Of a stretch of 52,978 nt of DNA, positions 4,888 to 38,246 are shown one piece after another (positions within the stretch are counted from its first letter, which is position 1; the number at the start of each line of letters is the position of its first letter). The notes below the pieces were generated by a model that was not told the origin of the DNA, made no database searches, and saw only the letters and a list, made by a program, of their open reading frames with translations. The position numbers and the translations under genes were made by a program. The DNA lies in assembly GCA_024244665.1 (NCBI GenBank), contig JAAEOI010000109.1:1-52978 (forward strand), written 5' to 3'. Source of the stretch: Bacteroidota bacterium. Lineage in GTDB: Bacteria; Bacteroidota; Bacteroidia; Bacteroidales; GCA-2748055.

Positions 4888-5886
4888 ATGGCAAATCTTA
4901 CAACACAACACATGGGGGTAAGCCTGAAAAACCCATTGATCCTTGGCGCCAGCAATCTTGTGAACAACCTGGATAAATTGAAACAGGCAGAAGAGGCAGG
5001 TGTAGCAGGGATTGTTTACCGTTCTCTTTTTGAAGAGCAGATACAGTTGGAGGAGTACGAACTGAGCAGCCAGCTTGAAGCTTATGATGACCGCAATGCA
5101 GAGATGATCAATCTCTTTCCAAAAATAGAGCATGGCGGACCCAAAGAGCACCTCCACAACCTGAAGCATGTACTGGACGAACTCTCTATCCCGGTATTTG
5201 CCAGTCTGAACGCCATCTACAAGGAGTCCTGGGTGGAGTACGCCAAATCCCTGGAGGAGCTGGGTGTAGCCGGACTGGAACTCAATTTCTTCTCGGTACC
5301 ACGCGATTTCGATAAATCGGGACACGATATCATCCTTCAACAGATTGAATTCCTGAAGGCAGTAAAAGCTGCAGTAAAAATCCCGGTCAGTGTAAAGTTG
5401 AGCCCATTTTATACCAATATTCTGAAGACCATCAAGGACCTGGACAATGCCGGTGCGGATGCATTCATCCTATTCAACAGGCTGTTTGAACCGGACATTG
5501 ATGTGGAGGCCGAAAAGCATGCTTCCCACTGGAACCTGAGTACCCACAGTGATCACAGGCTTTCCATCAGGTATATCGGTCTGACCTATGGTAACCTGGA
5601 TGCCAGCGTCGCAGCCAACAACGGGATCTATGAAGGGATCGACATTGTGAAGATGATCCTTGCAGGAGCTTCCGCCGTACAGGCAGTCAGCACTTTCTAT
5701 CACAATGGAGTGGGACATGCCACAACCATGCTGAAGGAGCTGGAAGAGTGGATGGACGGCAAAGGATATGATTCCATCCGGGCCTTCCAGGGAAAACTGA
5801 GCAGCAAATCCATCAACGATCCCTTTGTATACAAGCGCGCCCAGTACATCGATTTGCTCCTGAAATCTGACGAACATTTCACTTAG
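4888..5886 (+). CDS. Dihydroorotate dehydrogenase-like (PyrD-family) protein
   Basis: This 332-residue protein has the FMN-binding TIM-barrel pattern of class 1 dihydroorotate dehydrogenases. It opens with a strand like that of PyrD (LKNPLILGASNLV at about 14-26). Further matches are a substrate-region ELNFFSVP near 130, the barrel strand PVSVKLSPF near 167 and the C-terminal FMN-phosphate region AGASAVQAVSTFYHNG near 258. Members of this variant family are annotated as dihydroorotate dehydrogenase-like and are often found near pyruvate:ferredoxin oxidoreductase genes, as here. The true substrate is not known, and no pyrimidine genes lie nearby, so I do not call it pyrD. It faces the marR-hgc operon convergently, with a heptamer repeat array starting 5 bases after its stop codon. 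Confidence 0.85.
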   Translation: MANLTTQHMGVSLKNPLILGASNLVNNLDKLKQAEEAGVAGIVYRSLFEEQIQLEEYELSSQLEAYDDRNAEMINLFPKIEHGGPKEHLHNLKHVLDELSIPVFASLNAIYKESWVEYAKSLEELGVAGLELNFFSVPRDFDKSGHDIILQQIEFLKAVKAAVKIPVSVKLSPFYTNILKTIKDLDNAGADAFILFNRLFEPDIDVEAEKHASHWNLSTHSDHRLSIRYIGLTYGNLDASVAANNGIYEGIDIVKMILAGASAVQAVSTFYHNGVGHATTMLKELEEWMDGKGYDSIRAFQGKLSSKSINDPFVYKRAQYIDLLLKSDEHFT

Positions 5887-5977: not shown

Positions 5978-6418
5978 TTAATTATTTACCCGCAAGGCAA
6001 CCATTTTACAGGTGAGCTTTTCAAACAACCTGAGAAAATCCTCACGCTCCTTACTTGTAAAATCACTTAAAATCTCACTGATAAATGAATCATTGATATA
6101 ATGAATGGTTTTGCAAACATCCCTTCCCGATTCAGTAAGATTGATCATTGCTTTTCTGCGGTTTTCCTTCGGAATGACCCGATCTACCATTTTAATGTTG
6201 ACGAGTCCATCTACCGTCCGACTCACAGTACTTTTGTCCAGGGATAGTTTGTTAGCCAACTCGGAGACTGATATCTCACTGTTCTTCTCAATTTCCAACA
6301 GTGAGTGGCACTGGGCCATGCTGATCCCGTTGCAGCACGAGGCGCTGTTCTGGAAAAATACTTCCCGGTCGAAAGTCCGGAGTATCTCCCTGAAGTGACG
6401 TATGAATTCTTCGTTCAT
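5978..6418 (-). CDS. MarR-family transcriptional regulator with clustered cysteines, third gene of the hgcAB operon
   Basis: This 146-residue winged-helix DNA-binding protein has the MarR layout: an N-terminal dimerisation helix, a helix-turn-helix at about residues 50-72 (VSELANKLSLDKSTVSRTV), a beta wing with DRVIPKENRRK at 79-89 and C-terminal helices. Cysteines 28, 29 and 37 lie together before the recognition domain (SCCNGISMAQC), with more at 102 and 137. Such a grouping could bind a soft metal or thiol-reactive ligand, but this is inference. The ATG at 6416-6418 is chosen; the open frame runs up to 6538 but would overlap the end of hgcB. It starts 34 bases after the hgcB stop on the same strand, so it is probably co-transcribed and may be an autoregulator of hgcAB through the inverted repeats at 7782-7809. 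Confidence 0.85.
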   Translation of the reverse strand: MNEEFIRHFREILRTFDREVFFQNSASCCNGISMAQCHSLLEIEKNSEISVSELANKLSLDKSTVSRTVDGLVNIKMVDRVIPKENRRKAMINLTESGRDVCKTIHYINDSFISEILSDFTSKEREDFLRLFEKLTCKMVALRVNN

Positions 6419-6452
6419 GGTAAATTTCTTACAGATAGATAAATAAGATTCA

Positions 6453-6746
6453 TCAACAAGATCCCCCGGAATCGCATCCACATGTGGGTTCCGTTCCTTT
6501 AAAAAATCCTGAAATAACTGCAGCTGCACATCCCACACCTTGGTTTACAGTCAGAGCTCCCGTATTGCAATTCAATGCGCATGCACCACACTCTATGCAC
6601 CTGTCCCGGTCGATAAGCTCAGCTTTCCTGCCCGCCATGATAAACACATTGTGTGGGCAAACCTCTATGCACATGCGGCACCCATTACATTTGGAGGCAT
6701 CATAGTCAAGCGTAACGACATTTTTTATGTACTTCTGATTATCCAT
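6453..6746 (-). CDS. hgcB: HgcB, 2[4Fe-4S] ferredoxin of mercury methylation
   Basis: This 97-residue protein is a bacterial-type dicluster ferredoxin. The first cluster motif is CNGCRMCIEVCP (Cys20, 23, 26, 30) and the second CIECGACALNC (Cys50, 53, 56, 60); the C(M/I)ECGA sequence is typical of HgcB. Cys73 in the VGC motif sits where known HgcB has its essential extra cysteine. The tail ends CGCDSGGSC, giving Cys89, 91 and 97, in place of the vicinal Cys pair of the best-studied homologue. Known role: it supplies electrons to the HgcA corrinoid and may deliver Hg(II) during methylmercury formation. Its ATG overlaps the hgcA stop by 8 bases, which implies translational coupling. A generic ferredoxin is much less likely given the extra cysteines and the hgcA neighbour. 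Confidence 0.95.
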   Translation of the reverse strand: MDNQKYIKNVVTLDYDASKCNGCRMCIEVCPHNVFIMAGRKAELIDRDRCIECGACALNCNTGALTVNQGVGCAAAVISGFFKGTEPTCGCDSGGSC

Positions 6747-7761
6747 GTTGTATCAATCTTGAGATGAGAAAAAGGGCCAACCCGATGAGTACCAACGCCA
6801 GCTGAATGGGAACAAAGATTCGCATCTCTTTCCGGACCCCGCTCAGTGAAGTATAGGTACTCGCACCGGTAAAATTCATGGTCAGGTAGGAAGATACTGC
6901 TCCCGATATAAACAACCAGCCAAACAATTCATCAAGAGTTAACCCGGTAAATCTGAAAGATGCCATCAATCCAAATGTGACAAATCCTGTAATAAGCCCC
7001 TTCCCTCCGAAATACCGAAATGGGATCCAGGGCAAAAGCAAAGGGGCAATAAATGCTCCGCTCAGGTAGGCTGCCAGCAGGTATAATCCAAACCAGACCC
7101 CCTCCTTCCAGATAAGTTCCGGAGAATATCCGCCGGGGTGCAATCCGGACAAAGCCATAATGACAACAATGCTTAAAAAAAGATAGCGCAGACCGATTAC
7201 AAGTTCCACAGGTGTCAGGATCAGCCGATCCTTGAGATTAAATGAGACAGTACGAGTGGCTTCATTTTTTTTCAGTCCGGCCGATAAATAAGACTTAATA
7301 TCCTCTATCCTGACCGGACCAAATTTTACGGAAAACCCAACAGCCTCTTTCACCTGTTTTGCAGACACTCCAGGTGCTCCCAACTGAGGAACAATCAGTC
7401 GCCTGTGCGACACATACATGGATAGTTGTGACTCCTTTACCTGTCTGATGATTTCAGCAGTTCCAAAAGTCCCCTTTCCGGCCGCACACCACACATTGAT
7501 ACCAAAAGTCTCCAACACCAATATCCAGGCACTCAATCCGTCCAGGTTTCTCCTTACCAGGTCAAAACTCAGCTTGAAATTTGAGGTAACAATAACCTCA
7601 GAATCTTTTCCCGGTTGACCAAGTTTGTATAATCCGGGATCTACGCGGTATTTATTTCTCCCAATGGATAACCTGACGCGCAGCGCTCCCAGGTTATCTT
7701 TCCTGCTCCATGTTGAATTAATTTCCGGAGGTGAAATTAATGTGAGCTTGCTATAATCCAT
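6739..7761 (-). CDS. hgcA: HgcA, corrinoid membrane protein of mercury methylation
   Basis: This 340-residue protein has the HgcA two-part architecture. Residues 1-170 form a corrinoid-binding domain related to the large corrinoid iron-sulfur protein of the acetyl-CoA pathway. It bears the diagnostic cap-helix motif NVWCAAGK at 89-96, where Cys92 is the expected lower ligand of cobalt. Residues about 185-335 contain five membrane helices (about 186-207, 221-246, 255-271, 279-297, 313-336). The conserved loop MNFTGASTYTSLSGVRKEM lies at 295-313. Known role: with HgcB it transfers a methyl group from the corrinoid to Hg(II) at the inner membrane. It heads the operon hgcA-hgcB-marR, 77 bases downstream of def, with its own candidate promoter and operator. 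No Shine-Dalgarno sequence is seen, as usual in Bacteroidota. The identification is firm; actual methylating activity is untested. Confidence 0.97.
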   Translation of the reverse strand: MDYSKLTLISPPEINSTWSRKDNLGALRVRLSIGRNKYRVDPGLYKLGQPGKDSEVIVTSNFKLSFDLVRRNLDGLSAWILVLETFGINVWCAAGKGTFGTAEIIRQVKESQLSMYVSHRRLIVPQLGAPGVSAKQVKEAVGFSVKFGPVRIEDIKSYLSAGLKKNEATRTVSFNLKDRLILTPVELVIGLRYLFLSIVVIMALSGLHPGGYSPELIWKEGVWFGLYLLAAYLSGAFIAPLLLPWIPFRYFGGKGLITGFVTFGLMASFRFTGLTLDELFGWLFISGAVSSYLTMNFTGASTYTSLSGVRKEMRIFVPIQLALVLIGLALFLISRLIQHG

Positions 7762-7781
7762 AATTGTTTCGTATTAAAACT

Positions 7782-7815
7782 GTTGCAATATACAACTTTT
7801 GCATTACAAAACAAT
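7782..7815 (-). promoter_or_regulatory. Candidate hgcA promoter overlapped by two inverted-repeat operator boxes
   Basis: Read on the minus strand, box 1 is TTGTAATGCAA (7799-7809) and box 2 is GTTGTATATTGCAAC (7782-7796). Both consist of half-sites TTGTA and TGCAA, separated by 1 and 3 bases respectively, the kind of short AT-rich palindrome bound by MarR dimers. A weak core promoter overlaps them: ATTG (7812-7815), 19 bases, then TATATTGC (7785-7792), against the consensus TTTG-N19-TAnnTTTG. Box 2 covers the -7 element and box 1 lies in the spacer. The hgcA ATG is 20 bases downstream of box 2. Binding by the operon's own MarR protein is an inference. Confidence 0.5.
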
Positions 7816-7838: not shown

Positions 7839-8402
7839 TTATTTCTTAGGATAGATAATCTTGTAGTCGCAATCGACTCGTCCCCTGCCGATTGCCTTCA
7901 GGCGCGGTGCCAGTAATTTCCTGCGTATGGGGTTCACCTTATCGGTAAACAGTTTCCCTTCCAGGTGGTCATATTCATGCTGAATTACCCTGGCCCGGAT
8001 CCCGTCAAACTCCTCCTCATGAAGGTTCCAGTTCTCGTCGTAGTACTCGATGCTGACATTCTCGGGCCGGGAGACCTCCTCCCTTATGTTTGGCAGACTC
8101 AGACAGCCCTCCTCGAAGGACCATGGGTCACCCCATTCCTCCAGGATATAAGGATTGATAAAAACCTTCCTGAAATCCTTCAACTCGGGCTCATCCTGGT
8201 TATCAGCCATCGGGGTGGTGTCAACCACAAATATCCTCAGGGATTTACCCACCTGTGGGGCAGCAAGACCCACACCGTCGCTTGCATGCATGGTGTCAAA
8301 GAGGTCTCCAATAAACTGATCCAGTTCCTTAAAATCTTTAGGAATATCAGGAGCAATCTTCCGAAGTACTGACATTCCATTTACATATACCGGTAATACC
8401 AT
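7839..8402 (-). CDS. def: Peptide deformylase
   Basis: This 187-residue metalloenzyme removes the formyl group from the N-terminal methionine of nascent proteins at the ribosome. All three family motifs are present: GVGLAAPQVG at 43-52, EGCLSLP at 98-104 with the metal-ligand cysteine at 100, and QHEYDH at 141-146 with the two metal-ligand histidines and catalytic glutamate. The start MVLPVYVNG matches the usual N-terminus of Bacteroidota deformylases. It lies 32 bases after ruvX on the same strand, a pairing that is common in this phylum. The hgcA operon begins 77 bases downstream, so read-through from def into hgcA is possible because no clear hairpin terminator lies between them. Confidence 0.95.
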   Translation of the reverse strand: MVLPVYVNGMSVLRKIAPDIPKDFKELDQFIGDLFDTMHASDGVGLAAPQVGKSLRIFVVDTTPMADNQDEPELKDFRKVFINPYILEEWGDPWSFEEGCLSLPNIREEVSRPENVSIEYYDENWNLHEEEFDGIRARVIQHEYDHLEGKLFTDKVNPIRRKLLAPRLKAIGRGRVDCDYKIIYPKK

Positions 8403-8942: not shown

Positions 8943-11900
8943 TTATGAAGTAGGTGTGAAATCGAGGCTCGCCATCCGCACATAAGAGCTGTAACGCCAT
9001 TTGGCATTGGTCTGAGCAGCTTTAAACAGTTCCGCAGCTTCTGCAGGGAATGCTTTCTGCAGAGAGGTGTAACGTACCTCCGACTTCAGGAAGGACTGGA
9101 ACTCATCCCACTGGGGCTCCTTTGAATCCAGGATGAACGGGTTCTTACCATCTTCCTCCAAAGAAGGATTGTAGCGGTAGAGGTGCCAGTAACCACTCTC
9201 CACTGCAAACTTCGCCTGGCTCTGTGATTTACCCATACCTGAACGCAATCCGTGGTTGATACAGGGAGAGTAGGCAATAACGATGGAAGGTCCGGGGTAA
9301 GCTTCAGCTTCCCTGATTGTCTTCAGGTACTGACTCTGGCTGGCACCCATGGATACCTGAGCTACGTATACATAACCATAGGTCATGGCCATCATTCCCA
9401 GGTCCTTCTTACGGATCTTCTTTCCGGAAGCGGCAAATTTGGCCACAGCACCCACAGGGGTAGCTTTTGACGCCTGTCCGCCGGTATTGGAGTAAACCTC
9501 GGTATCCATAACCAGGATGTTCACGTCTTCTCCTGAAGCAATCACATGGTCCAGTCCGCCGAAACCGATGTCATAAGCCCATCCGTCTCCACCAAAGATC
9601 CAGACTGACTTTTTCACCAGGTACTGCTTCAGGCTCTTGATCTCTTCTGCTAAGGCATGAGACTCACTCTCAAGAGTGGTCAGCAGGTTTGCAGATGTCA
9701 CCTTGGAAGCATCCAGGTTCTCCATGCTATCGATCCATGCTGTGAATGCCTCTTTTGTAGCAGGCTTAACCTCATCCATGGCAGCGACCATCTTATTCTT
9801 GATGCGGTCGCGATTCTTGTTCACACCGGTTGCAAGTCCGAATCCATACTCGGCATTGTCCTCAAACAGTGAGTTGGCCCATGCAGGACCCTGACCTTCT
9901 GTATTGGCGCAGTAGGGAGTGGATGGAGCTGAACCACCATAGATGGAGGAACAACCTGTGGCGTTGGCCACAATCATCTGGTCTCCATACAGCTGAGTAA
10001 TCAACTTAATATAGGGTGTTTCACCACAACCGGCACAGGCTCCGGAGAACTCGAAGAGTGGCTGGGCGAACTGACTATTCTTCACGGTCTTCTTTTTATC
10101 CACCAGGCTATCCTTGTAAGATATCTCCTTGATCATGTGATCCCATCTTGGAATTTCAGCATCCTGGCTGGCCAGGGGCTTCATCTCGAGGGATTTGACC
10201 TTGGAAGGACATACATCGGCGCAGTTTCCACAGCCTGTACAGTCCAGAACTGATACCTGGATTTTGAACTCAAGACCAGCATAAGCTTTACCATTGGCTT
10301 TTACGGTTTCAGTTCCCTCGGGCAGAGCCTTTGCTTCCTTCTCGTCAATAAGGAAGGGACGGATGGCAGCGTGGGGACAAACATAGGCACACTGGTTACA
10401 CTGGATGCAATTGTCGGCTACCCACTCGGGTACGTTGACTGCAATACCACGCTTCTCGTACTGTGAAGTACCAGCAGGGAATGTGCCATCTTCACGTCCA
10501 ACAAATGCACTGACGGGAAGGTCGTCACCAGCCAGGTTGTTAATTGGCTCAACAACATTCTTGACAAATTCAGGAACAGGACGGGCATCAACTTTTTCTG
10601 CATCGGGACCCAGCTTGCTCCAGGCAGCATCTACTTCAACCTGGGTTACATTCCCACCCTTTTCAACTGCAGCAAAGTTCATGTTCACAACCTCTTCACC
10701 CTTTCGGCCGAAACTCTTGATGATGAATTTACGCATCTCCTCAACAGCCTGGTCGTATGGAATAATATCGGCAATCTTAAAGAAAGCTGACTGCATGATG
10801 GTATTGGTCCGGTTACCCAGGCCCAATTCCTGTGCCAGTTTGGTGGCATTAATAATATAGAAATTGATCTTGTGATCGGCCAGCTGCTTCTTCACCAGGT
10901 TAGGAAGGTGCTTGATGGTCTCCTCACCACTCCAGATGGAGTTCAGCAGGAAGGTTCCTCCATCTTTAATTCCCCTGAGCATGTCATATTTCTCCAGGTA
11001 GGAAGGAACATGGCAGGCTACAAAATCTGGCTTTACCACCAGGTAGGGAGAACGGATGGGATTATCACCAAAGCGCAGGTGAGAAGTGGTGATACCGCCC
11101 GATTTCTTGGAGTCGTAGGCAAAATATGCCTGGCAGTATTTATCTGTCGATTCACCAATAATCATGATGGAGTTCTTGTTGGCACCTACGGTACCATCGG
11201 AACCCAGTCCATAGAATTTTCCCTCAAATGTACTGTCATCACCCAGTGAAATCTCGGGGAGCAGCGGAAGGGAAGTGAAGCTAACGTCATCCACGATACC
11301 CACTGTAAACCTGTCTTTGGGCTCAGCCATCCTCAGGTTATCGAATACCGAGATCATCATGGCTGGAGTGGTATCCTTGGAGGAGAGTCCGTAACGTCCG
11401 CCTACGATCAGCGGAGCATTTTCCTTTCCATAGAAGAGCTCCTTAATATCCAGAAGGAGCGGCTCCCCGTTTGCTCCGGGCTCCTTGGTACGGTCAAGAA
11501 CAGAGATACGCTTCACCGATTTGGGAATTACATCCATGAAATACTTGGCTGAAAAGGGCCTGTAGAGATGAACTGAAAGCAAGCCTACCTTTTCGCCTTT
11601 GGCGTTTTGGTGGTCAACAACCTCCTTCAGGGTTTCAGTAATGGAACCCATGGCGATCACGATGTTCTCTGCATCGTCAGCTCCGTAGTATGTAAAGGGC
11701 TTGTATTCGCGGCCGGTCAGTTTACTGATCTCCTTCATGTAGGCAGCAACCTCATCGGGAATCACTTCGTAATATTTATTGGCTGCTTCACGTGACTGGA
11801 AATAGATATCGGGATTCTGAGCCAGACCACGTGTAACAGGGTGCTCAGGATTCAGGGCATTGTCCCTGAATGCTTTCAGTGCATCCATATCAAGCAGTTT

Positions 11901-12482
11901 AGCAAGCTCCTCTTCATCGAGCGCTTCCACCTTCTGGATCTCGTGTGAAGTACGGAAGCCATCAAAGAAATGAAGGAAGGGAATCCTGGTTTTAATAGAG
12001 GTCAGGTGAGCTACAGCTGCCAGGTCCATCACCTCCTGCACACTACCCGTTGCCAGCATTGCAAAACCTGTCTGACGGGTCGACATCACATCACTGTGGT
12101 CCCCGAAAATGGAGAGTGCCTGAGCTGCCAGGCTCCTTGCTGAAACGTGGAAAACACCGGGAAGCAATTCCCCTGAAATTTTGTACATATTTGGGATCAT
12201 CAACAGAAGCCCCTGGGAAGCGGTAAATGTGGAGGTAAGTGCGCCACTTTGAAGCGATCCGTGAACCGCACCTGCAGCACCTGCTTCGGACTGCATCTCG
12301 GCCACCTTAACGGTCTCCCCAAAAATGTTCTTTCTGCCGTTAGCCGACCACTCATCCACATACTCTGCCATGTTAGAAGATGGAGTGATCGGATAGATGG
12401 CAGCTACCTCACTAAACATGTAAGCAATATGCGCAGCTGCATAATTGCCATCACATGTCATGAAATTCCTTTTATTCGCCAT
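8943..12482 (-). CDS. nifJ: Pyruvate:ferredoxin (flavodoxin) oxidoreductase, single-chain
   Basis: This 1179-residue enzyme oxidises pyruvate with coenzyme A to acetyl-CoA and CO2 and reduces ferredoxin. It is the standard fused form with all domains in order. The N-terminal pyrimidine-binding domain contains YPITPSSNMAE near residue 35. A CoA-binding middle domain and a gamma domain follow (GSDGTVGANKNS near 425). Two ferredoxin clusters come next, CIQCNQCAYVCP near 690 and CTGCGNCADVCP near 745. The thiamine diphosphate domain contains CAGCGETPY near 820 and GDGWAYDIGFGG followed by NTGGQ near 970-1010. Full length matches the family (about 1170-1200). It is monocistronic, with an intrinsic terminator 21 bases downstream. 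Reduced ferredoxin from it can feed the Rnf complex at 33165-38246 and, plausibly, HgcB. This points to an anaerobic metabolism. Confidence 0.97.
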   Translation of the reverse strand: MANKRNFMTCDGNYAAAHIAYMFSEVAAIYPITPSSNMAEYVDEWSANGRKNIFGETVKVAEMQSEAGAAGAVHGSLQSGALTSTFTASQGLLLMIPNMYKISGELLPGVFHVSARSLAAQALSIFGDHSDVMSTRQTGFAMLATGSVQEVMDLAAVAHLTSIKTRIPFLHFFDGFRTSHEIQKVEALDEEELAKLLDMDALKAFRDNALNPEHPVTRGLAQNPDIYFQSREAANKYYEVIPDEVAAYMKEISKLTGREYKPFTYYGADDAENIVIAMGSITETLKEVVDHQNAKGEKVGLLSVHLYRPFSAKYFMDVIPKSVKRISVLDRTKEPGANGEPLLLDIKELFYGKENAPLIVGGRYGLSSKDTTPAMMISVFDNLRMAEPKDRFTVGIVDDVSFTSLPLLPEISLGDDSTFEGKFYGLGSDGTVGANKNSIMIIGESTDKYCQAYFAYDSKKSGGITTSHLRFGDNPIRSPYLVVKPDFVACHVPSYLEKYDMLRGIKDGGTFLLNSIWSGEETIKHLPNLVKKQLADHKINFYIINATKLAQELGLGNRTNTIMQSAFFKIADIIPYDQAVEEMRKFIIKSFGRKGEEVVNMNFAAVEKGGNVTQVEVDAAWSKLGPDAEKVDARPVPEFVKNVVEPINNLAGDDLPVSAFVGREDGTFPAGTSQYEKRGIAVNVPEWVADNCIQCNQCAYVCPHAAIRPFLIDEKEAKALPEGTETVKANGKAYAGLEFKIQVSVLDCTGCGNCADVCPSKVKSLEMKPLASQDAEIPRWDHMIKEISYKDSLVDKKKTVKNSQFAQPLFEFSGACAGCGETPYIKLITQLYGDQMIVANATGCSSIYGGSAPSTPYCANTEGQGPAWANSLFEDNAEYGFGLATGVNKNRDRIKNKMVAAMDEVKPATKEAFTAWIDSMENLDASKVTSANLLTTLESESHALAEEIKSLKQYLVKKSVWIFGGDGWAYDIGFGGLDHVIASGEDVNILVMDTEVYSNTGGQASKATPVGAVAKFAASGKKIRKKDLGMMAMTYGYVYVAQVSMGASQSQYLKTIREAEAYPGPSIVIAYSPCINHGLRSGMGKSQSQAKFAVESGYWHLYRYNPSLEEDGKNPFILDSKEPQWDEFQSFLKSEVRYTSLQKAFPAEAAELFKAAQTNAKWRYSSYVRMASLDFTPTS

Positions 12483-28218: not shown

Positions 28219-28779
28219 CTACAACCCACTTTTCCATGGTTGCTGTGGAACCCCCGTCATGACTGCAATCTTTCTTGATAATACAAAGAAATAATCGGAC
28301 AAGCGGTTATAAAAACGGACCATATCTTCCTGAATGTTCACCTCCTGGCCCAGTTTTAGTATAGTTCTTTCGGTTCTCCTGCACACGGTCCGTGCAATAT
28401 GAACCTGGGAAATGATCGGATGGCCCCCCGGAATTAAAAATGAGGTAAGTGGTTCAAGGGTGGCATCCATCTCATCAATCCGCCTCTCCAGAAAGCTTAT
28501 CTGCTCCTCCCCTACCAAGGGGAACTCCACAGGACTGTGATCCACATCGGCAGCAAGCACCGAAGCGGTGGCCATCTGAATATCCAGAATAGTCAGAAGG
28601 TCCTCCCGGATCCCGTCATCCTCCACCATGTCGCGTAACATAGCAGTCTGGGCCATTAACTCATCCACTGTCCCGTATGCCTCGATTCTTGAATGGAATT
28701 TATGTACACGCCGTCCACCGATCAACGAGGTCTTACCCTTATCGCCACCCCTGGTGTATATTTCAGATTTTTTCGACAT
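28219..28779 (-). CDS. Cob(I)yrinic acid a,c-diamide / cob(I)alamin adenosyltransferase, PduO type
   Basis: This 186-residue enzyme transfers the adenosyl group of ATP to cob(I)alamin, making coenzyme B12. The PduO-type motifs are present: the ATP-binding N-terminus YTRGGDKGKTSLIGG (8-22), the RRTER motif near 133-137 and NRLSDYFFVLSR near 158-169. Its length fits the family. It starts 20 bases after the ABC ATPase gene on the same strand. The presence of this enzyme shows that the cell handles corrinoids, which HgcA also needs, but the locus is 20 kb away and serves adenosylcobalamin enzymes generally. Confidence 0.93.
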   Translation of the reverse strand: MSKKSEIYTRGGDKGKTSLIGGRRVHKFHSRIEAYGTVDELMAQTAMLRDMVEDDGIREDLLTILDIQMATASVLAADVDHSPVEFPLVGEEQISFLERRIDEMDATLEPLTSFLIPGGHPIISQVHIARTVCRRTERTILKLGQEVNIQEDMVRFYNRLSDYFFVLSRKIAVMTGVPQQPWKSGL

Positions 28780-33164: not shown

Positions 33165-34031
33165 ATGAGCCAGATCATTCTATTTACAGTTGTCACACTG
33201 GTCGCCATTGGAGCTGCTGCAGCGATCATCCTCTATTTTGTGGCACAGAAGTTCAAGGTCTTTGAAGACCCCCGGATCGACCAGGTGGAGGAGGAGCTTC
33301 CTGCAGCCAACTGCGGTGGATGCGGATTTCCCGGCTGCAGGAACTTTGCGGAAAACCTGGTCAAATCTGATAAATGGGACGGACTGTTCTGCCCGGTGGG
33401 TGGAAACGAAATCATGGCAAAAGCAGCTGCGATCCTGGGCAAGGAGGCCATCGAACAGGCACCCAAGGTGGCCGTGGTACGGTGCAACGGCACTCCCGAG
33501 CACAGGCCCAGGCTCAATGTCTACAACGGTGCCCCTACCTGCACGATCATCCACAGCCTCTACATGGGTGAAAGTGGTTGTCCCAACGGATGTCTCGGAG
33601 AGGGCGATTGTGTTGTTGTCTGTGATTTTGATGCCATCCACATGGATCCGGTAAGCGAGCTTCCGGTGGTGGTGGATGAAAAGTGTACTGCCTGCGGTGC
33701 CTGCGTGGATGCCTGTCCGAGGAACATCATTGAGCTCCGCAAAAAGAATAAGAAAGACCGTAAAATATTTGTCAGCTGCATCAACACTGAGAAGGGTGCA
33801 ATGGCCAAAAAGAATTGCAGCGTGGCTTGCATCGGGTGTTCCAAGTGTTTCAAAGTTTGCCCCTATGAAGCCATCACCATGGAGAACAACCTTGCATTTA
33901 TCGATGCCGACAAATGCAAGCTCTGTCGCAAGTGTGTGGTGGTATGCCCCACTAGTGCGATCCTTGAATTGAACTTCCCGCCACCCAGGAAGACCGAGAA
34001 AACAGAACCAGCTGACGCAGAATTAAAATAG
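33165..34031 (+). CDS. rnfB: Rnf electron transport complex subunit B
   Basis: This 288-residue iron-sulfur protein accepts electrons from ferredoxin at the cytosolic face of Rnf. Residues 5-27 form one membrane anchor. The conserved first cluster is NCGGCGFPGC near 49-58 with a further Cys near 76. Multiple ferredoxin-like clusters follow: a Cys-rich region near 122-152, CTACGACVDACP near 175, CIGCSKCFKVCP near 222 and CKLCRKCVVVCP near 252. It is longer and has more clusters than proteobacterial RnfB (about 190 residues), as in other Bacteroidota and Clostridia. The likely electron source is ferredoxin reduced by the PFOR encoded at 8943-12482. It starts 8 bases after rseC. Confidence 0.95.
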   Translation: MSQIILFTVVTLVAIGAAAAIILYFVAQKFKVFEDPRIDQVEEELPAANCGGCGFPGCRNFAENLVKSDKWDGLFCPVGGNEIMAKAAAILGKEAIEQAPKVAVVRCNGTPEHRPRLNVYNGAPTCTIIHSLYMGESGCPNGCLGEGDCVVVCDFDAIHMDPVSELPVVVDEKCTACGACVDACPRNIIELRKKNKKDRKIFVSCINTEKGAMAKKNCSVACIGCSKCFKVCPYEAITMENNLAFIDADKCKLCRKCVVVCPTSAILELNFPPPRKTEKTEPADAELK

Positions 34032-34038
34032 AAACACG

Positions 34039-35373
34039 ATGAGTCATAAAACATTCTCAAGGGGTGGGATTCATCCTCCGGAAAACAAACTGTCATCGGG
34101 CTCCGCCATTCGGGAAATCCCTCTTCCCGATGTGGTTGTGATTCCCGTATCCCAGCACCTGGGAGCACCCGCAAAAGTACTGGTGAAAAGAGGAGATGAA
34201 GTAAAAGTGGGGCAACTCATTGCCAGTAGTGAAGGATTTATTTCCACCAACATTCACTCCTCTGTATCCGGCAAGGTATTGAAAGTGGATCTCTTCCCCG
34301 ATAGTTCGGGATACCGGAAAACGGCCGTTCAGATCCAGGTGGAGGGTGATCAATGGATGGAGGATGTTGACCGTTCGGATGATGTGGTACCTCACACCGT
34401 TCTGGAACAGGAAGATATTCGCAAGAAGATGCTTGAGGCTGGTGTCGTTGGACTCGGAGGAGCGACTTTCCCCTCCCATGTAAAGCTGATGGTTCCCGGA
34501 GGAAAAACAGCCGAATACCTGATCATCAACGGGGTGGAATGCGAACCCTACCTGACCGCCGATCACCAGCTGATGATGGAACGGCCCCAGGAACTGGCTG
34601 CAGGGATCAGGCTGCTCATGAGGGGACTGGGTGTAAAGAAGGCGATCCTGGGCATTGAGAACAACAAGCCCGATGCCATCGCAAAAATGAAGGAGATCAC
34701 TAACGATCCTGCCATAGAGGTCCAGGGACTTAAAGTTAAATATCCACAGGGAGGTGAGAAGCAGCTGGTTCAGGCACTACTGAAAAGGGAGGTCCCCTCG
34801 GGCGGCTTGCCCATTGATGTGGGTGTGGTTGTTTTTAATGTAGGAACTGCCTTTGCCGCCTACGAGGCTGTTATGAAAAACCGTCCCCTGATCGAAAGGG
34901 TGGTAACGGTCACCGGAAAATCGATGGAGAAACCCTCCAACTTCCGGGTCCGGATCGGAACCCCGGTTTCCTACCTGATAGAACAGGCCGGCGGAGTACC
35001 TGAAAATACCGCCAAGGTAATTAATGGCGGACCCATGATGGGCAGGGCCCTGTCAAACCTGGATGTCCCGGTAGTAAAGGGAAGTTCGGGAATTTTACTG
35101 ATCCCAGAGGGAGAGGCGGAACGGAAAAAATCCTTACCCTGCATCAGGTGTACCAGGTGTGTTGGTGTTTGTCCCATGGGGCTGGAACCCTACCTGCTGA
35201 TGACCGTCTCCGAAAAGACCATGTATGAAAGGATGGAGAATGAAAAAGTAATGGATTGCATCGAATGTGGCAGCTGCAGTTTCACCTGTCCGTCGTCCAG
35301 ACCCCTGCTCGACTATATAAGACTTGGAAAAGCAGAAGTCGGAAAAATCATGCGTTCCAGAAAAGCAGTTTAA
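34039..35373 (+). CDS. rnfC: Rnf electron transport complex subunit C (NADH-linked)
   Basis: This 444-residue peripheral subunit exchanges electrons with NAD(H). The N-terminal RnfC barrel-sandwich domain starts with FSRGGIHPPENK. The NADH/FMN-binding region has GLGGATFPSHVK near 141 and INGVECEPYLTADHQLM near 163. An SLBB-type domain lies near 260-330. Two cluster motifs, CIRCTRCVGVCP near 368 and CIECGSCSFTCPSSRP near 409, close the protein. It begins 7 bases after rnfB and is followed by rnfD after 26 bases. The length is typical for the short form without the alanine-rich tail of E. coli RsxC. Confidence 0.96.
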   Translation: MSHKTFSRGGIHPPENKLSSGSAIREIPLPDVVVIPVSQHLGAPAKVLVKRGDEVKVGQLIASSEGFISTNIHSSVSGKVLKVDLFPDSSGYRKTAVQIQVEGDQWMEDVDRSDDVVPHTVLEQEDIRKKMLEAGVVGLGGATFPSHVKLMVPGGKTAEYLIINGVECEPYLTADHQLMMERPQELAAGIRLLMRGLGVKKAILGIENNKPDAIAKMKEITNDPAIEVQGLKVKYPQGGEKQLVQALLKREVPSGGLPIDVGVVVFNVGTAFAAYEAVMKNRPLIERVVTVTGKSMEKPSNFRVRIGTPVSYLIEQAGGVPENTAKVINGGPMMGRALSNLDVPVVKGSSGILLIPEGEAERKKSLPCIRCTRCVGVCPMGLEPYLLMTVSEKTMYERMENEKVMDCIECGSCSFTCPSSRPLLDYIRLGKAEVGKIMRSRKAV

Positions 35374-35399
35374 AGAAGAATATTGAAAATTTATATCCA

Positions 35400-36404
35400 A
35401 TGAATAAGCTCATTGTTTCACCTTCACCCCACGCATCCACAAGGGAATCGGTCCCCTCGCTCATGTACGGGGTGATCATCTCCCTGCTGCCGGCACTGGG
35501 AGTATCGGTGTATTACTTCGGCATCGGGATGGTGATTATCACTGTAGTGTCGGTCCTCTCCTGCATCAGTTTCGAATACCTGATCCAGAAATTTGTCATG
35601 AAGGTCAAGGCCACCCATCTTGATGGCTCCGCACTCCTTACCGGCTTGCTGCTGGCCTTTTGCCTTCCGGCCAACCTTCCAATATGGATGGTTCTGATCG
35701 GAGCACTTGTGGCGGTAGGGATTGGGAAAATGACCTTCGGGGGACTGGGAAACAATATTTTCAACCCGGCACTGGTGGGCAGGGTATTCCTGTTTATCTC
35801 CTTCCCGGTTGCCATGACAGCCTGGCCAAAATCCTGGCTCGAGACCAAAAATTGGATGCAGTACATAGATGCAGCCACCGGAGCCACTCCACTGGGAGTA
35901 ATGAAAGAGGGACTGCCCATGAAGACTGTAAGCGAGATCATGCCTGAGCTCCCATCCTCCCTCAACCTCTTTCTGGGAAACAACATGGGTTCAGCAGGTG
36001 AGGTGGCTGCCTTTGCACTGCTCATTGGGATGATCTACCTGCTTTACAAAAAGATCATTACCTGGCACATCCCCGTATCAATTCTTGGGACAGTATTCCT
36101 GTTTACAGGCATTCTGTGGCTGGCCAATCCTGATCGCTTTGTCGATCCCCTGTTTCACATGCTTACCGGGGGACTCATGTTGGGAGCGATATACATGGCC
36201 ACAGATTATGTTACCTCCCCCATGACAGGCAAGGGGATGCTGATCTACGGCATTGGGATCGGAGTCGTCACCGTGCTGATCCGGGTATTCGGAGCCTATC
36301 CCGAAGGGGTTCAGTTTGCCATCCTCATATTCAATGGCTTTACTCCTTTACTGAACAAGTTCATCAAACCAAAACGATTTGGAAAGGAGGTGCCCAATGG
36401 CTAA
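35400..36404 (+). CDS. rnfD: Rnf electron transport complex subunit D
   Basis: This 334-residue polytopic membrane protein carries covalently bound FMN. The FMN attachment sequence is DAATGATPLG near 159-168, where the second Thr is the expected site. About ten hydrophobic segments are visible, ending with AILIFNGFTPLLNKFI. The reading frame is open upstream to 35256 inside rnfC, but the ATG at 35400 gives the conserved N-terminus MNKLIVSPSPH; the longer version is rejected. Related to NqrB, it is part of the ion-translocating core. Its stop overlaps the start of rnfG by 8 bases. Confidence 0.95.
   Translation: MNKLIVSPSPHASTRESVPSLMYGVIISLLPALGVSVYYFGIGMVIITVVSVLSCISFEYLIQKFVMKVKATHLDGSALLTGLLLAFCLPANLPIWMVLIGALVAVGIGKMTFGGLGNNIFNPALVGRVFLFISFPVAMTAWPKSWLETKNWMQYIDAATGATPLGVMKEGLPMKTVSEIMPELPSSLNLFLGNNMGSAGEVAAFALLIGMIYLLYKKIITWHIPVSILGTVFLFTGILWLANPDRFVDPLFHMLTGGLMLGAIYMATDYVTSPMTGKGMLIYGIGIGVVTVLIRVFGAYPEGVQFAILIFNGFTPLLNKFIKPKRFGKEVPNG
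36383..36390 (+). promoter_or_regulatory. Strong Shine-Dalgarno sequence fixing the rnfG start
   Basis: AAAGGAGG lies 6 bases before the ATG at 36397, at ideal spacing. Such a strong site is rare in this window and favours 36397 over the in-frame ATG at 36379, probably to ensure re-initiation where rnfD and rnfG overlap. Confidence 0.7.
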
Positions 36405-36969
36405 GACAGAATCCACATTCCTCAATATGACTGCCACCCTTGTGGTGGTGACCCTGCTGGCGGCTGGGATGCTCGGAACAGTATTTGCTCTTACCAAGGA
36501 GCCCATAAAACTGGCCGAACTGAAAAAGAAAAACGAAGCCATTGCCGTGGTGGTACCAGGATTTGACAATGAACCCTCTCTGGAGGTTGAGGGACTGTTC
36601 ATAGACGGAGACTCTATTTTTCTCTACACTGCCCGGAAGGGAGACGAGGTACTGGGGACAGCCATTGAGACTTTCACCAACAAAGGTTTCAGCGGGAACT
36701 TCAAACTGATGGTAGGCTTTGATCCCGATGGTTCCATCATCGACATCGCCGTGATTAAGCACGCCGAGACACCCGGACTGGGTGACAAGATGGAACAGCA
36801 TAAATCGGATTTTCATGTGCAGTTCATGGGCAAAGACCCGACCAACTTTAACATTGCCGTTACAAAGGACCGTGGTGAGGTGGATGCCATCACCGCATCT
36901 ACGATTACCTCACGCGCCTACTGCGACGCAGTGATGCGTGCATACGAGGCATTAAATCTGACTCAGTAG
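36397..36969 (+). CDS. rnfG: Rnf electron transport complex subunit G
   Basis: This 190-residue protein has one N-terminal membrane helix (about 9-32) and a periplasmic FMN-binding domain. The covalent FMN motif is DAITASTITS near 166-175; the family consensus is SGATxT/S, so the Ser-Gly of the usual motif is replaced by Thr-Ala and Ser replaces the usual Ala, while the flavin-bearing Thr is kept. The start is set by the strong ribosome-binding site at 36383-36390, overlapping the rnfD stop by 8 bases. It follows rnfD and precedes rnfE after an unusually long gap of 114 bases. Confidence 0.93.
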   Translation: MAKTESTFLNMTATLVVVTLLAAGMLGTVFALTKEPIKLAELKKKNEAIAVVVPGFDNEPSLEVEGLFIDGDSIFLYTARKGDEVLGTAIETFTNKGFSGNFKLMVGFDPDGSIIDIAVIKHAETPGLGDKMEQHKSDFHVQFMGKDPTNFNIAVTKDRGEVDAITASTITSRAYCDAVMRAYEALNLTQ

Positions 36970-37083
36970 AAAGAAGAAAAATGAAACGTCCCTGAAAATA
37001 ATAGCAATAAAATCACAAAAGGGAATGCAATTATTGTTAGTGTAAGTTACATAAGACCCATAGAATAGATATAATAAATACTT
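36970..37083 (+). other. 114-base gap inside the rnf operon
   Basis: All other junctions in the rnf run are between -8 and 26 bases, but rnfG and rnfE are 114 bases apart. The gap is AT-rich and contains ATGAAACGTCCCTGA (36981-36995), a four-codon frame MKRP after a purine-rich run. No convincing hairpin or promoter consensus is seen. Confidence 0.5.
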
Positions 37084-37671
37084 ATGAATCAGTGGAAAAA
37101 TTTTAGCAAGGGATTTATCAAGGAGAACGCCGTTTTTGCGTTGTTCCTTGGATTGTGTCCCACACTCGGGGTGACCACCTCTGCCACCAACGGGCTTGGT
37201 ATGGGACTGGCCACCACATTTGTACTGGTGATGTCGAACCTGGTGGTTTCACTGGTGAAGAACTGGATTCCCGATAAGGTGAGGATTCCCGCCTTTATCG
37301 TAATCATTGCGACCTTCGTAACAGTGGTTGAACTGGTCATGAGAGGATATGTTCCCGCCCTCTTTGATGCACTTGGACTCTTCATTCCGCTCATCGTAGT
37401 CAACTGCCTGGTACTGGGAAGGGCCGAAGCCTTTGCCTCAAAAAACACAGTCTGGTCCTCCCTGGTGGATGGTGCCGGAATGGGTCTTGGATTCACCATG
37501 GCACTTACCGTTCTTGGCGCTGTCAGAGAGATTCTGGGCAGCGGAGCCTTCTTTGGAATGAAGTTGATCAGCGGCGATGCCATGCTGCTTTTCATCCTGC
37601 CACCGGGAGCATTTATTGCCCTTGGATACCTGATCGTTCTTGCCAATATGATTAAAGAAAAAACCGCCTGA
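37084..37671 (+). CDS. rnfE: Rnf electron transport complex subunit E
   Basis: This 195-residue membrane protein is homologous to NqrD and forms, with RnfA, the membrane core that coordinates an intramembrane iron-sulfur centre. Characteristic sequences are LGLCPTLGVTTSATNGLGMG near 22-41 (with the conserved Cys) and LIVVNCLVLGRAEAFA near 104-119 (second conserved Cys). Six hydrophobic helices are visible. It is followed after 2 bases by rnfA. The 114-base gap before it may hold a processing site or secondary promoter. Confidence 0.95.
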   Translation: MNQWKNFSKGFIKENAVFALFLGLCPTLGVTTSATNGLGMGLATTFVLVMSNLVVSLVKNWIPDKVRIPAFIVIIATFVTVVELVMRGYVPALFDALGLFIPLIVVNCLVLGRAEAFASKNTVWSSLVDGAGMGLGFTMALTVLGAVREILGSGAFFGMKLISGDAMLLFILPPGAFIALGYLIVLANMIKEKTA

Positions 37672-37673
37672 TC

Positions 37674-38246
37674 ATGGAATACATTCTGATCATTATCGCC
37701 GCTGTATTTGTCAGCAACATCGTACTGAACCAGTTCCTGGGTATCTGCCCCTTTATTGGAGTATCCAGCAAAGTGGAGACTGCTATCGGGATGACCGGTG
37801 CCGTAACTTTTGTGATGGTAATCGCCACCCTGGTGACCTACCTGATCTACTACTCGGTACTGGTACCCATGGACATCGTCTACATGCGAACCATTACCTT
37901 TATCCTGGTGATTGCCTCCCTTGTGCAGCTTGTGGAAATTATCCTGAAAAAGATATCTCCCCCACTCTACCAGGCACTGGGGATCTTCCTGCCACTGATC
38001 ACCACCAACTGCGCCGTACTGGGTGTGGCTGTGCTGGCGGTTCAAAAAGACTTCAACCTCCTGGAGAGCACCGTATATGCCATCGGGAATGCCATCGGCT
38101 TCGGGCTTGCCCTGATCACCTTCTCTGGAATCCGTGAGCAGCTCGACCTGCTCAATGTCCCAAAACGGATGAAAGGGGTTCCCATCGCCTTTATTGTAGC
38201 CGGGCTCATGGCCCTGGCTTTCATGGGATTTGCAGGAATTGTTTAG
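37674..38246 (+). CDS. rnfA: Rnf electron transport complex subunit A
   Basis: This 190-residue protein is the NqrE-like partner of RnfE, with an inverted topology of six helices. The two conserved cysteine motifs are NQFLGICPFIGVSSK near 18-32 and TNCAVLGVAVL near 107-117. Together with RnfE it binds the intramembrane iron-sulfur cluster that carries electrons across the membrane. It is the last gene of the run rseC-rnfBCDGEA, which is the Bacteroidota order. A small GC-rich hairpin without a T-tract follows at 38251-38265. Confidence 0.95.
   Translation: MEYILIIIAAVFVSNIVLNQFLGICPFIGVSSKVETAIGMTGAVTFVMVIATLVTYLIYYSVLVPMDIVYMRTITFILVIASLVQLVEIILKKISPPLYQALGIFLPLITTNCAVLGVAVLAVQKDFNLLESTVYAIGNAIGFGLALITFSGIREQLDLLNVPKRMKGVPIAFIVAGLMALAFMGFAGIV

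Follow-up and report, generated by a model that had tools for sequence, protein, structure and literature searches.

A MarR-family gene and a predicted operator adjoin the mercury-methylation genes hgcAB in a Bacteroidota genome

Introduction

The genes hgcA and hgcB are the known genetic basis of microbial methylmercury formation, and what triggers them is largely an open question. Methyl transfer from a corrinoid to Hg(II) by their products is established for Pseudodesulfovibrio and Geobacter. The stretch of DNA analysed here in its entirety (52,978 nucleotides of a Bacteroidota contig; the window) carries the pair on its minus strand and poses the question of how hgcAB is controlled in such an organism. 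The first-pass annotation dealt with the pair (6453..7761) and missed what is the more novel part of the locus, which lies largely outside these limits: an adjoining regulator gene and a predicted operator. The hgcAB pair alone is ordinary in kind; in the company of regulator and operator it becomes a specific proposal for control, here and beyond. A named regulator with a named predicted operator makes hgcAB control testable, and the two together would allow the inducible type to be recognized by sequence in metagenomic data.

The hgcAB pair

HgcA (hgcA, 6739..7761, minus strand; 340 aa) is the corrinoid protein of mercury methylation, and scores 395.9 bits against NCBIfam HgcA_corrinoid (NF040863; curated cut-off 275) in a match that covers positions 2-324 of the 325-position model. 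Its sole cysteine, C92, is the cobalt-ligand residue of the NVWCAAGKG cap helix. HgcB (hgcB, 6453..6746, minus strand; 97 aa), a dicluster ferredoxin, scores 118.8 bits against NCBIfam HgcB_ferredoxin (NF040864; cut-off 99). Its cysteines, at positions 20, 23, 26, 30, 50, 53, 56, 60, 73, 89, 91 and 97, comprise the eight cluster cysteines of two 4Fe-4S motifs, C73, and a tail with C89, C91 and C97. The two genes overlap by 8 bases (6739-6746).

The first-pass annotation is borne out in its identification of the pair, both scores exceeding their curated cut-offs, and also in the NVWCAAGK motif with Cys92, the 8-base overlap, and the ferredoxin with Cys73 and a cysteine-bearing tail; the HgcA score that might have told against it lies above the cut-off. 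Its five-helix C-terminal membrane domain stands in part: MNFTGASTYTSLSG, which it had placed there, is found in HgcA, and five C-terminal hydropathy peaks are seen (187-205, 225-243, 256-274, 271-289 and 315-333), the third and fourth of which overlap. A further peak (76-94) falls inside the corrinoid domain.

The identity of the pair as hgcAB is supported. That HgcA is not a CdhD/AcsC corrinoid protein is judged by HMM score (68.8 bits against PRK04165, below the cut-off of 306), the HgcA tree being one without CdhD/AcsC rows; the Pfam CdhD domain does match HgcA (48.3 vs 24.8 bits). An HgcAB-like fusion (NF043039) is also rejected, at 196.9 bits against a cut-off of 285, hgcA and hgcB being separate genes. 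In a protein search, 7954 of the 7998 candidates scored (those with the most shared words) passed, so that the window pair itself merely adds to a large family already on record.

The pair resembles hgcAB of Pseudodesulfovibrio mercurii ND132 and of Geobacter in the cap-helix cysteine and probable membrane domain of HgcA, and in the two cluster motifs, Cys73 and tail cysteines of HgcB; the window proteins have the residues that PMC7305189 describes as required for activity. It differs from them in that the window HgcA belongs to a separate Bacteroidota clade, in the three tail cysteines (89, 91, 97) of HgcB, and in having a regulator that is MarR-type and downstream. Going by homology, the window HgcA and HgcB would transfer a methyl group from corrinoid to Hg(II). 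The remark that few if any Bacteroidota hgcAB have been tested agrees with the passages on the subject in PMC10504345, which count seven hgcA-bearing Prolixibacteraceae in NCBI, none of them cultured.

The MarR gene

The third gene of the run (marR, 5978..6418, minus strand) begins 34 bases past hgcB and encodes a MarR-family regulator of 146 aa, the predicted repressor. The protein scores 42.6 bits against Pfam PF01047 (gathering score 24.6) and has the winged-helix MarR fold; the first structure model (pLDDT 64.7) was replaced by one with a deeper alignment. A GTG start at 6538 (186 aa, inside hgcB) is rejected because aligned relatives start at or near the ATG at 6418. The best-scoring named MarR model, BilQ (NF045593), gives 59.2 bits, below its cut-off of 125. 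The zinc-dependent AdcR (NF038251) is comparable as a metal-responsive MarR fold; the window protein is unlike it in score (32.8 bits, cut-off 175) and in that cysteines are its conserved candidate ligands. Among its structural neighbours are AbfR, OhrR and SarZ, which are cysteine redox sensors. Another is a MarR of Clostridioides difficile whose crystal bears the label 'with Hg-bound' (PDB 8xt8); this may be a soaked crystal and is given no weight in what follows.

The window MarR has 402 relatives at E up to 0.001, and C28, C29, C37 and C102 do not vary across an alignment of 18 sequences, of which the window's is one. In a profile alignment position 29 is cysteine in 27 of 27 hgcA- or arsenic-linked MarR proteins and in none of 18 other MarR matches found in these loci and genomes (nine have another residue and nine are unaligned there); because 21 of the 27 went into the profile, the alignment is biased in their favour, but the residue is not. 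The 27 (duplicate copies and three fragmentary linked genes are not counted) are 10 of the downstream type including the window's own, 12 of the upstream type and five sisters, all described below. The 12 upstream-type proteins of the first survey all have Cys-Cys near the C terminus. A MarR tree of 46 selected rows unites the Cys-type proteins (support 85) to the exclusion of nine other MarR proteins, and the window type groups with the arsenic-linked sisters (93); one sister, L086, stands among the hgc-linked rows on a long branch.

The predicted operator

Two tandem 15-bp predicted binding sites precede hgcA on the minus strand. O1, GTTGTATATTGCAAC, is at 7782..7796. O2, GTTTTAATACGAAAC, is a degenerate second copy 16 bases on (7766..7780), which lies one base past O1 and ends 4 bases before the hgcA ATG. 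An imperfect inverted repeat spans both. The site is pseudo-palindromic and conserved, and may be bound by a MarR dimer. O1 is the only site in the window with at most one mismatch (chance mean 0.01); at three mismatches the count is that of chance (4 vs 4.21). A sigma-70 scan found promoter-like sites no commoner than chance.

A match to O1 (at most one mismatch, within 250 bp upstream of hgcA) is present in 8/9 MarR-linked loci and 0/71 others (Fisher 3e-10). The sole exception among the nine, L001, is one of the closest relatives of the window and has a linked MarR but no site before hgcA, which counts against the explanation favoured below. The tandem layout recurs in the linked loci and in sister marR promoters. 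In 14 whole genomes the exact site occurs ten times, never more than once per genome; seven of the copies immediately precede hgcA and three immediately precede a sister marR operon. Base composition predicts about 0.6 to 0.8 in 58.8 Mb. Sites with one mismatch are at target in G003 (before hgcA) and G147 (before marR-arsN2), and G001 and G135 have no site at target. Allowing up to one mismatch yields 47 matches in the 14 genomes, 14 at hgcA or sister-marR targets and 33 elsewhere; the latter number compares with 16 in a reversed-pattern control, so that a few further target genes are possible.

Occurrence in other genomes

The first survey started from 480 pattern matches in a genome collection, 473 of which encode HgcA relatives; MarR adjoins hgcA in 21 of the 80 loci retained (the best 80 of the 473). 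In nine of the first 10 loci a MarR match of 196-286 bits is directly 3' of hgcB, with hgcB between it and hgcA in all nine (the downstream type); in 12 more (the upstream type, from KSB1, Aminicenantes, Thermodesulfobacteriota and one unclassified bacterium) the match is weaker and is directly upstream of hgcA. Nineteen sizes are common to HgcA-match and MarR-match contigs, vs 1.5 by jitter, which is indirect support.

A 13-bp core, TTGYATNNTRCAA, is found within 800 bp upstream of HgcA in 12/12 upstream-type loci, all exact, a count that is in-sample because the core consensus was read from those 12 loci. The nine downstream-type loci have it five times exactly, twice at one mismatch, and once each at two and three; the 59 remaining loci have it three times at one mismatch and never exactly.

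The held-out set comprises 119 hgcA loci from four other samples: 17 of 20 from the order of G005 (broken, partial and low-scoring ones omitted), 90 of 103 places from the phylum of G018, four newly fetched from the family of G004, and all eight from the phylum of G016. Loci were sorted by the C-x-G pattern, which 18 of the 119 have; eight have a MarR-profile match without C-x-G, and these proteins carry (by eye) one or two cysteines there in other spacings. Six MarR-linked loci of the first survey were set aside. At up to one mismatch, the core is present in 10/12 held-out loci in which a C-x-G MarR adjoins hgcA (6 exact), 4/8 with other MarR matches (3 exact) and 2/93 with no MarR match (1 exact); Fisher 1.5e-10 for 10/12 vs 2/93. 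The two C-x-G loci that lack the core count against the explanation favoured below. Four of the 93 share the HgcA of a first-survey locus (2/89 without them), and the counts are not fully independent because some loci are close relatives (L218, L229). In L278, two exact copies of the core (at 1435 and 1971) flank a MarR gene without C-x-G and with no hgcA adjoining; the core therefore also occurs outside the Cys type.

Of the 28 genomes in the family of G004, seven have the MarR profile, in all of them beside hgcB. HgcA is found in 6/28 rather than eight because hgcA of G658 and G659 runs off the contig end; G025 is the only HgcA match of the family without MarR and is a partial match. The order sample (295 genomes) has HgcA in 20 (19 above cut-off) and MarR in five (E up to 1e-15), and the two occur together only in G005 and G147; they are linked in one of these and on different contigs in G147. 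Thus the majority of hgcA-bearing genomes in the 295-genome order sample are without this MarR, which counts against the explanation that is favoured below. The G018 phylum sample has the MarR profile in 29/345 genomes (E up to 1e-20); 10 of the 11 best matches (at least 123 bits) are directly beside hgcA, and that of G389 is not visibly so.

One locus, L009, falls inside the downstream-type clade (branch 95 with L008) and has neither marR after hgcB nor operator; regulator and site are missing together, an apparent coupled loss. L009 also has an ArsR-like gene, identified by eye, at 4961-5284 (-), about 690 bases upstream of hgcAB on the other strand; a regulator swap is possible.

Sister operons and arsenic

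Four MarR matches of the order sample are unlinked to hgcA (L083, L084, L085 and L086). In L083 and L084 the sister marR is accompanied by a MATE gene and by ArsN2, an arsenic-resistance acetyltransferase gene (147.1 and 144.7 vs 125 bits), in L085 by a MATE-like gene alone, and in L086 by a MATE-like gene and a divergent ArsN1-like gene below cut-off (MATE identity was HMM-tested in L083 only). Both tandem sites are present in the promoters of L083, L084 and L085. Only one of the three exact sister sites is in an ArsN2 operon; the other ArsN2 operon has the one-mismatch site. The arsenic link consists of two ArsN2 genes above cut-off and one ArsN1-like gene below it, and on this basis, which is modest in size, arsenicals or similar soft metals are proposed as the MarR ligand.

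In a further sister operon (G009/L081, 3607-5168, minus strand) marR is followed, behind the same operator, by a gene for a C-GCAxxG-C-C protein and a SAM methyltransferase gene. The methyltransferase scores below all named cut-offs shown; a metal or metalloid methylation operon is possible.

A proposal for control of hgcAB

The best reading of the locus is that of a predicted, dedicated thiol-sensing repressor of hgcAB. MarR likely represses hgcA-hgcB-marR through O1 and O2, and would be released by a thiol-seeking metal or metalloid at its cysteines. Judging from position, the head-to-tail genes (5978-7761) would form a single autoregulated transcript, and the two predicted sites would overlap the transcription start; MarR bound there would repress the run, and As(III) or Hg(II) on its cysteines would release it from DNA. 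These two ligands are put forward because of the conserved cysteines and because sister genes lie beside arsenic-resistance genes. Methylmercury production in such loci would then be switched on and off, probably by metals or arsenic. The wider generalization tips only slightly towards belief: a Cys-sensing MarR family with a common operator, TTGYATNNTRCAA, would control hgcAB in at least four phylum-level groups while its sisters guard arsenic resistance, and methylmercury would be an inducible answer to thiol-seeking metals and metalloids. With MarR, a second family of regulators would have a possible tie to arsenic, a point of consequence for what HgcAB natively does.

MarR might instead control hgcAB through O1 and O2 as a sensor of redox state, thiol stress or an organic ligand, with metals not the ligand. 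The structural neighbours AbfR, OhrR and SarZ would suit such a sensor, as would the MATE exporter genes that come after three sisters and face a fourth; the two sisters beside ArsN2 would not, nor would the C-terminal Cys-Cys of all 12 upstream-type proteins, which suits a soft-metal site, and ND132 is reported to have an arsenic-responsive ArsR-like regulator of hgcAB (PMC10349881, in the passages concerned). This possibility is doubtful but deserves to be taken seriously. It is unlikely, more so than the preceding, that the pair consists of HgcA/HgcB homologues whose native substrate is a different one and which methylate no mercury in this organism: the passages of PMC10349881 on the native role of HgcAB describe it as open, and the literature passages on the subject contain no methylation test of a Bacteroidota hgcAB, but the residues known as needed (C92, C73 and the tail cysteines) are all present and both proteins score above cut-off.

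Two further alternatives leave hgcAB outside the reach of MarR. That the site serves marR autoregulation only, with hgcAB under other signals, fits the sister operons, where marR itself has this site in front of it; in the Bacteroidales type, by contrast, it is hgcA that follows the site and marR is the third gene, so that hgcAB cannot escape the site, if it is functional, and such a limited role is quite improbable. Still harder to credit is that MarR and site are passengers of a conserved chromosomal block with no role in hgcAB expression. The gene order around hgcAB is indeed common to the window, L001 and L004, but other loci keep hgcA-hgcB-marR amid different neighbours, MarR and site recur in other phyla in another arrangement, and the association of the two in held-out loci already disfavours it.

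Relation to known regulators

The predicted thiol-sensing repressor has a counterpart in the ArsR-like regulator of ND132 (Gionfriddo et al. 2023, via the passages in PMC10349881), which is likewise beside hgcAB and linked to arsenic, and from which the window differs in protein family and gene order. One sentence in PMC10349881 concerns Dethiobacter alkaliphilus and Geobacter daltonii, in which a MarR-family gene lies upstream of hgcA; the likeness (a MarR-family gene beside hgcA) is one of description, not sequence, and the description, in the passages concerned, is without cysteine motif, operator or cross-phylum family. The relevant part of PMC7438021 reports a putative regulator, its family unnamed, upstream of hgcAB in 112 genomes of several phyla; this may overlap with the upstream MarR type. 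A full-text search for hgcA and MarR, with most subscription papers outside it, yielded that one relevant sentence in PMC10349881; PMC7862947 and PMC11308531 were rejected since 'marr' there begins other words. With the same restriction on subscription papers, the literature search found no MarR downstream of hgcB in Bacteroidota, no such Cys motif and no such operator. A 2025 survey (PMC12953829) remarks that hgcAB may be under alternative control in methylators whose arsR lies away from it.

Lineage and chromosomal surroundings

The Bacteroidota setting named in the first-pass annotation is supported by the nearest relatives, Bacteroidota MAGs in which the gene order is conserved. A 96-row tree places the window HgcA in an 11-row Bacteroidota clade (SH-aLRT 99). 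A 26-row Bacteroidota/Ignavibacteriota clade (SH-aLRT 90) and some other Bacteroidota rows stand apart from it; the root is unsure because of the great length (8.8) of the outgroup row, L106. Of the relatives for which gene context is available, two Bacteroidota MAG loci, L001 and L004, are nearest; they share with the window, to their contig limits, the order rho, nifJ, ruvX, def, hgcA, hgcB, marR, DHOD-like, comEC, trkA-like (the names rho, nifJ, ruvX and trkA are our presumptive assignments from sequence). Identities between the window and L004 are 98.8% for Rho (346 residues present), 91.8% for NifJ, 80.2% for Def and 68.5% for HgcA. Two neighbours provide context only: a peptide deformylase gene upstream of the run (7839..8402, minus strand; PF01327, 167.6 bits), whose product is 78-80% identical in L001 and L004, where it is the same neighbour, and a dihydroorotate dehydrogenase-like gene convergent with marR (4888..5886, plus strand; NF005741, 343.6 vs 303 bits), whose product is 87-89% identical in both.

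In at least seven loci of the 26-row clade (L035, L039, L042, L047, L059, L061 and L073) hgcAB is located, by eye, between genes that we take to be low-molecular-weight arsC-like and acr3-like. Arsenic genes near hgcAB have been reported (in passages of PMC7438021 and PMC10504345). An HgcA-like frame with internal stops in L104 (1327-2082, plus strand), between arsC-like and acr3-like genes, is to all appearances a broken or misassembled copy. An HgcA match in L105 (1324-2133, minus strand; 299 bits, over the cut-off) extends over model positions 1-199 only in a 269-aa frame; flanked by sequence on both sides, it is possibly an HgcA without membrane domain.

Elsewhere in the window, a cobalamin adenosyltransferase gene (28219-28779, minus strand; PF01923, 169.9 bits) is about 20 kb from the corrinoid-dependent hgcA. 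An RNF-type electron-transport cluster (33165-38246, plus strand) has RnfC-, RnfD- and Rnf-Nqr-like domains and a polyferredoxin. Together with what is presumably a pyruvate:ferredoxin oxidoreductase-like gene (8943-12482), it suggests a ferredoxin-based anaerobic metabolism.
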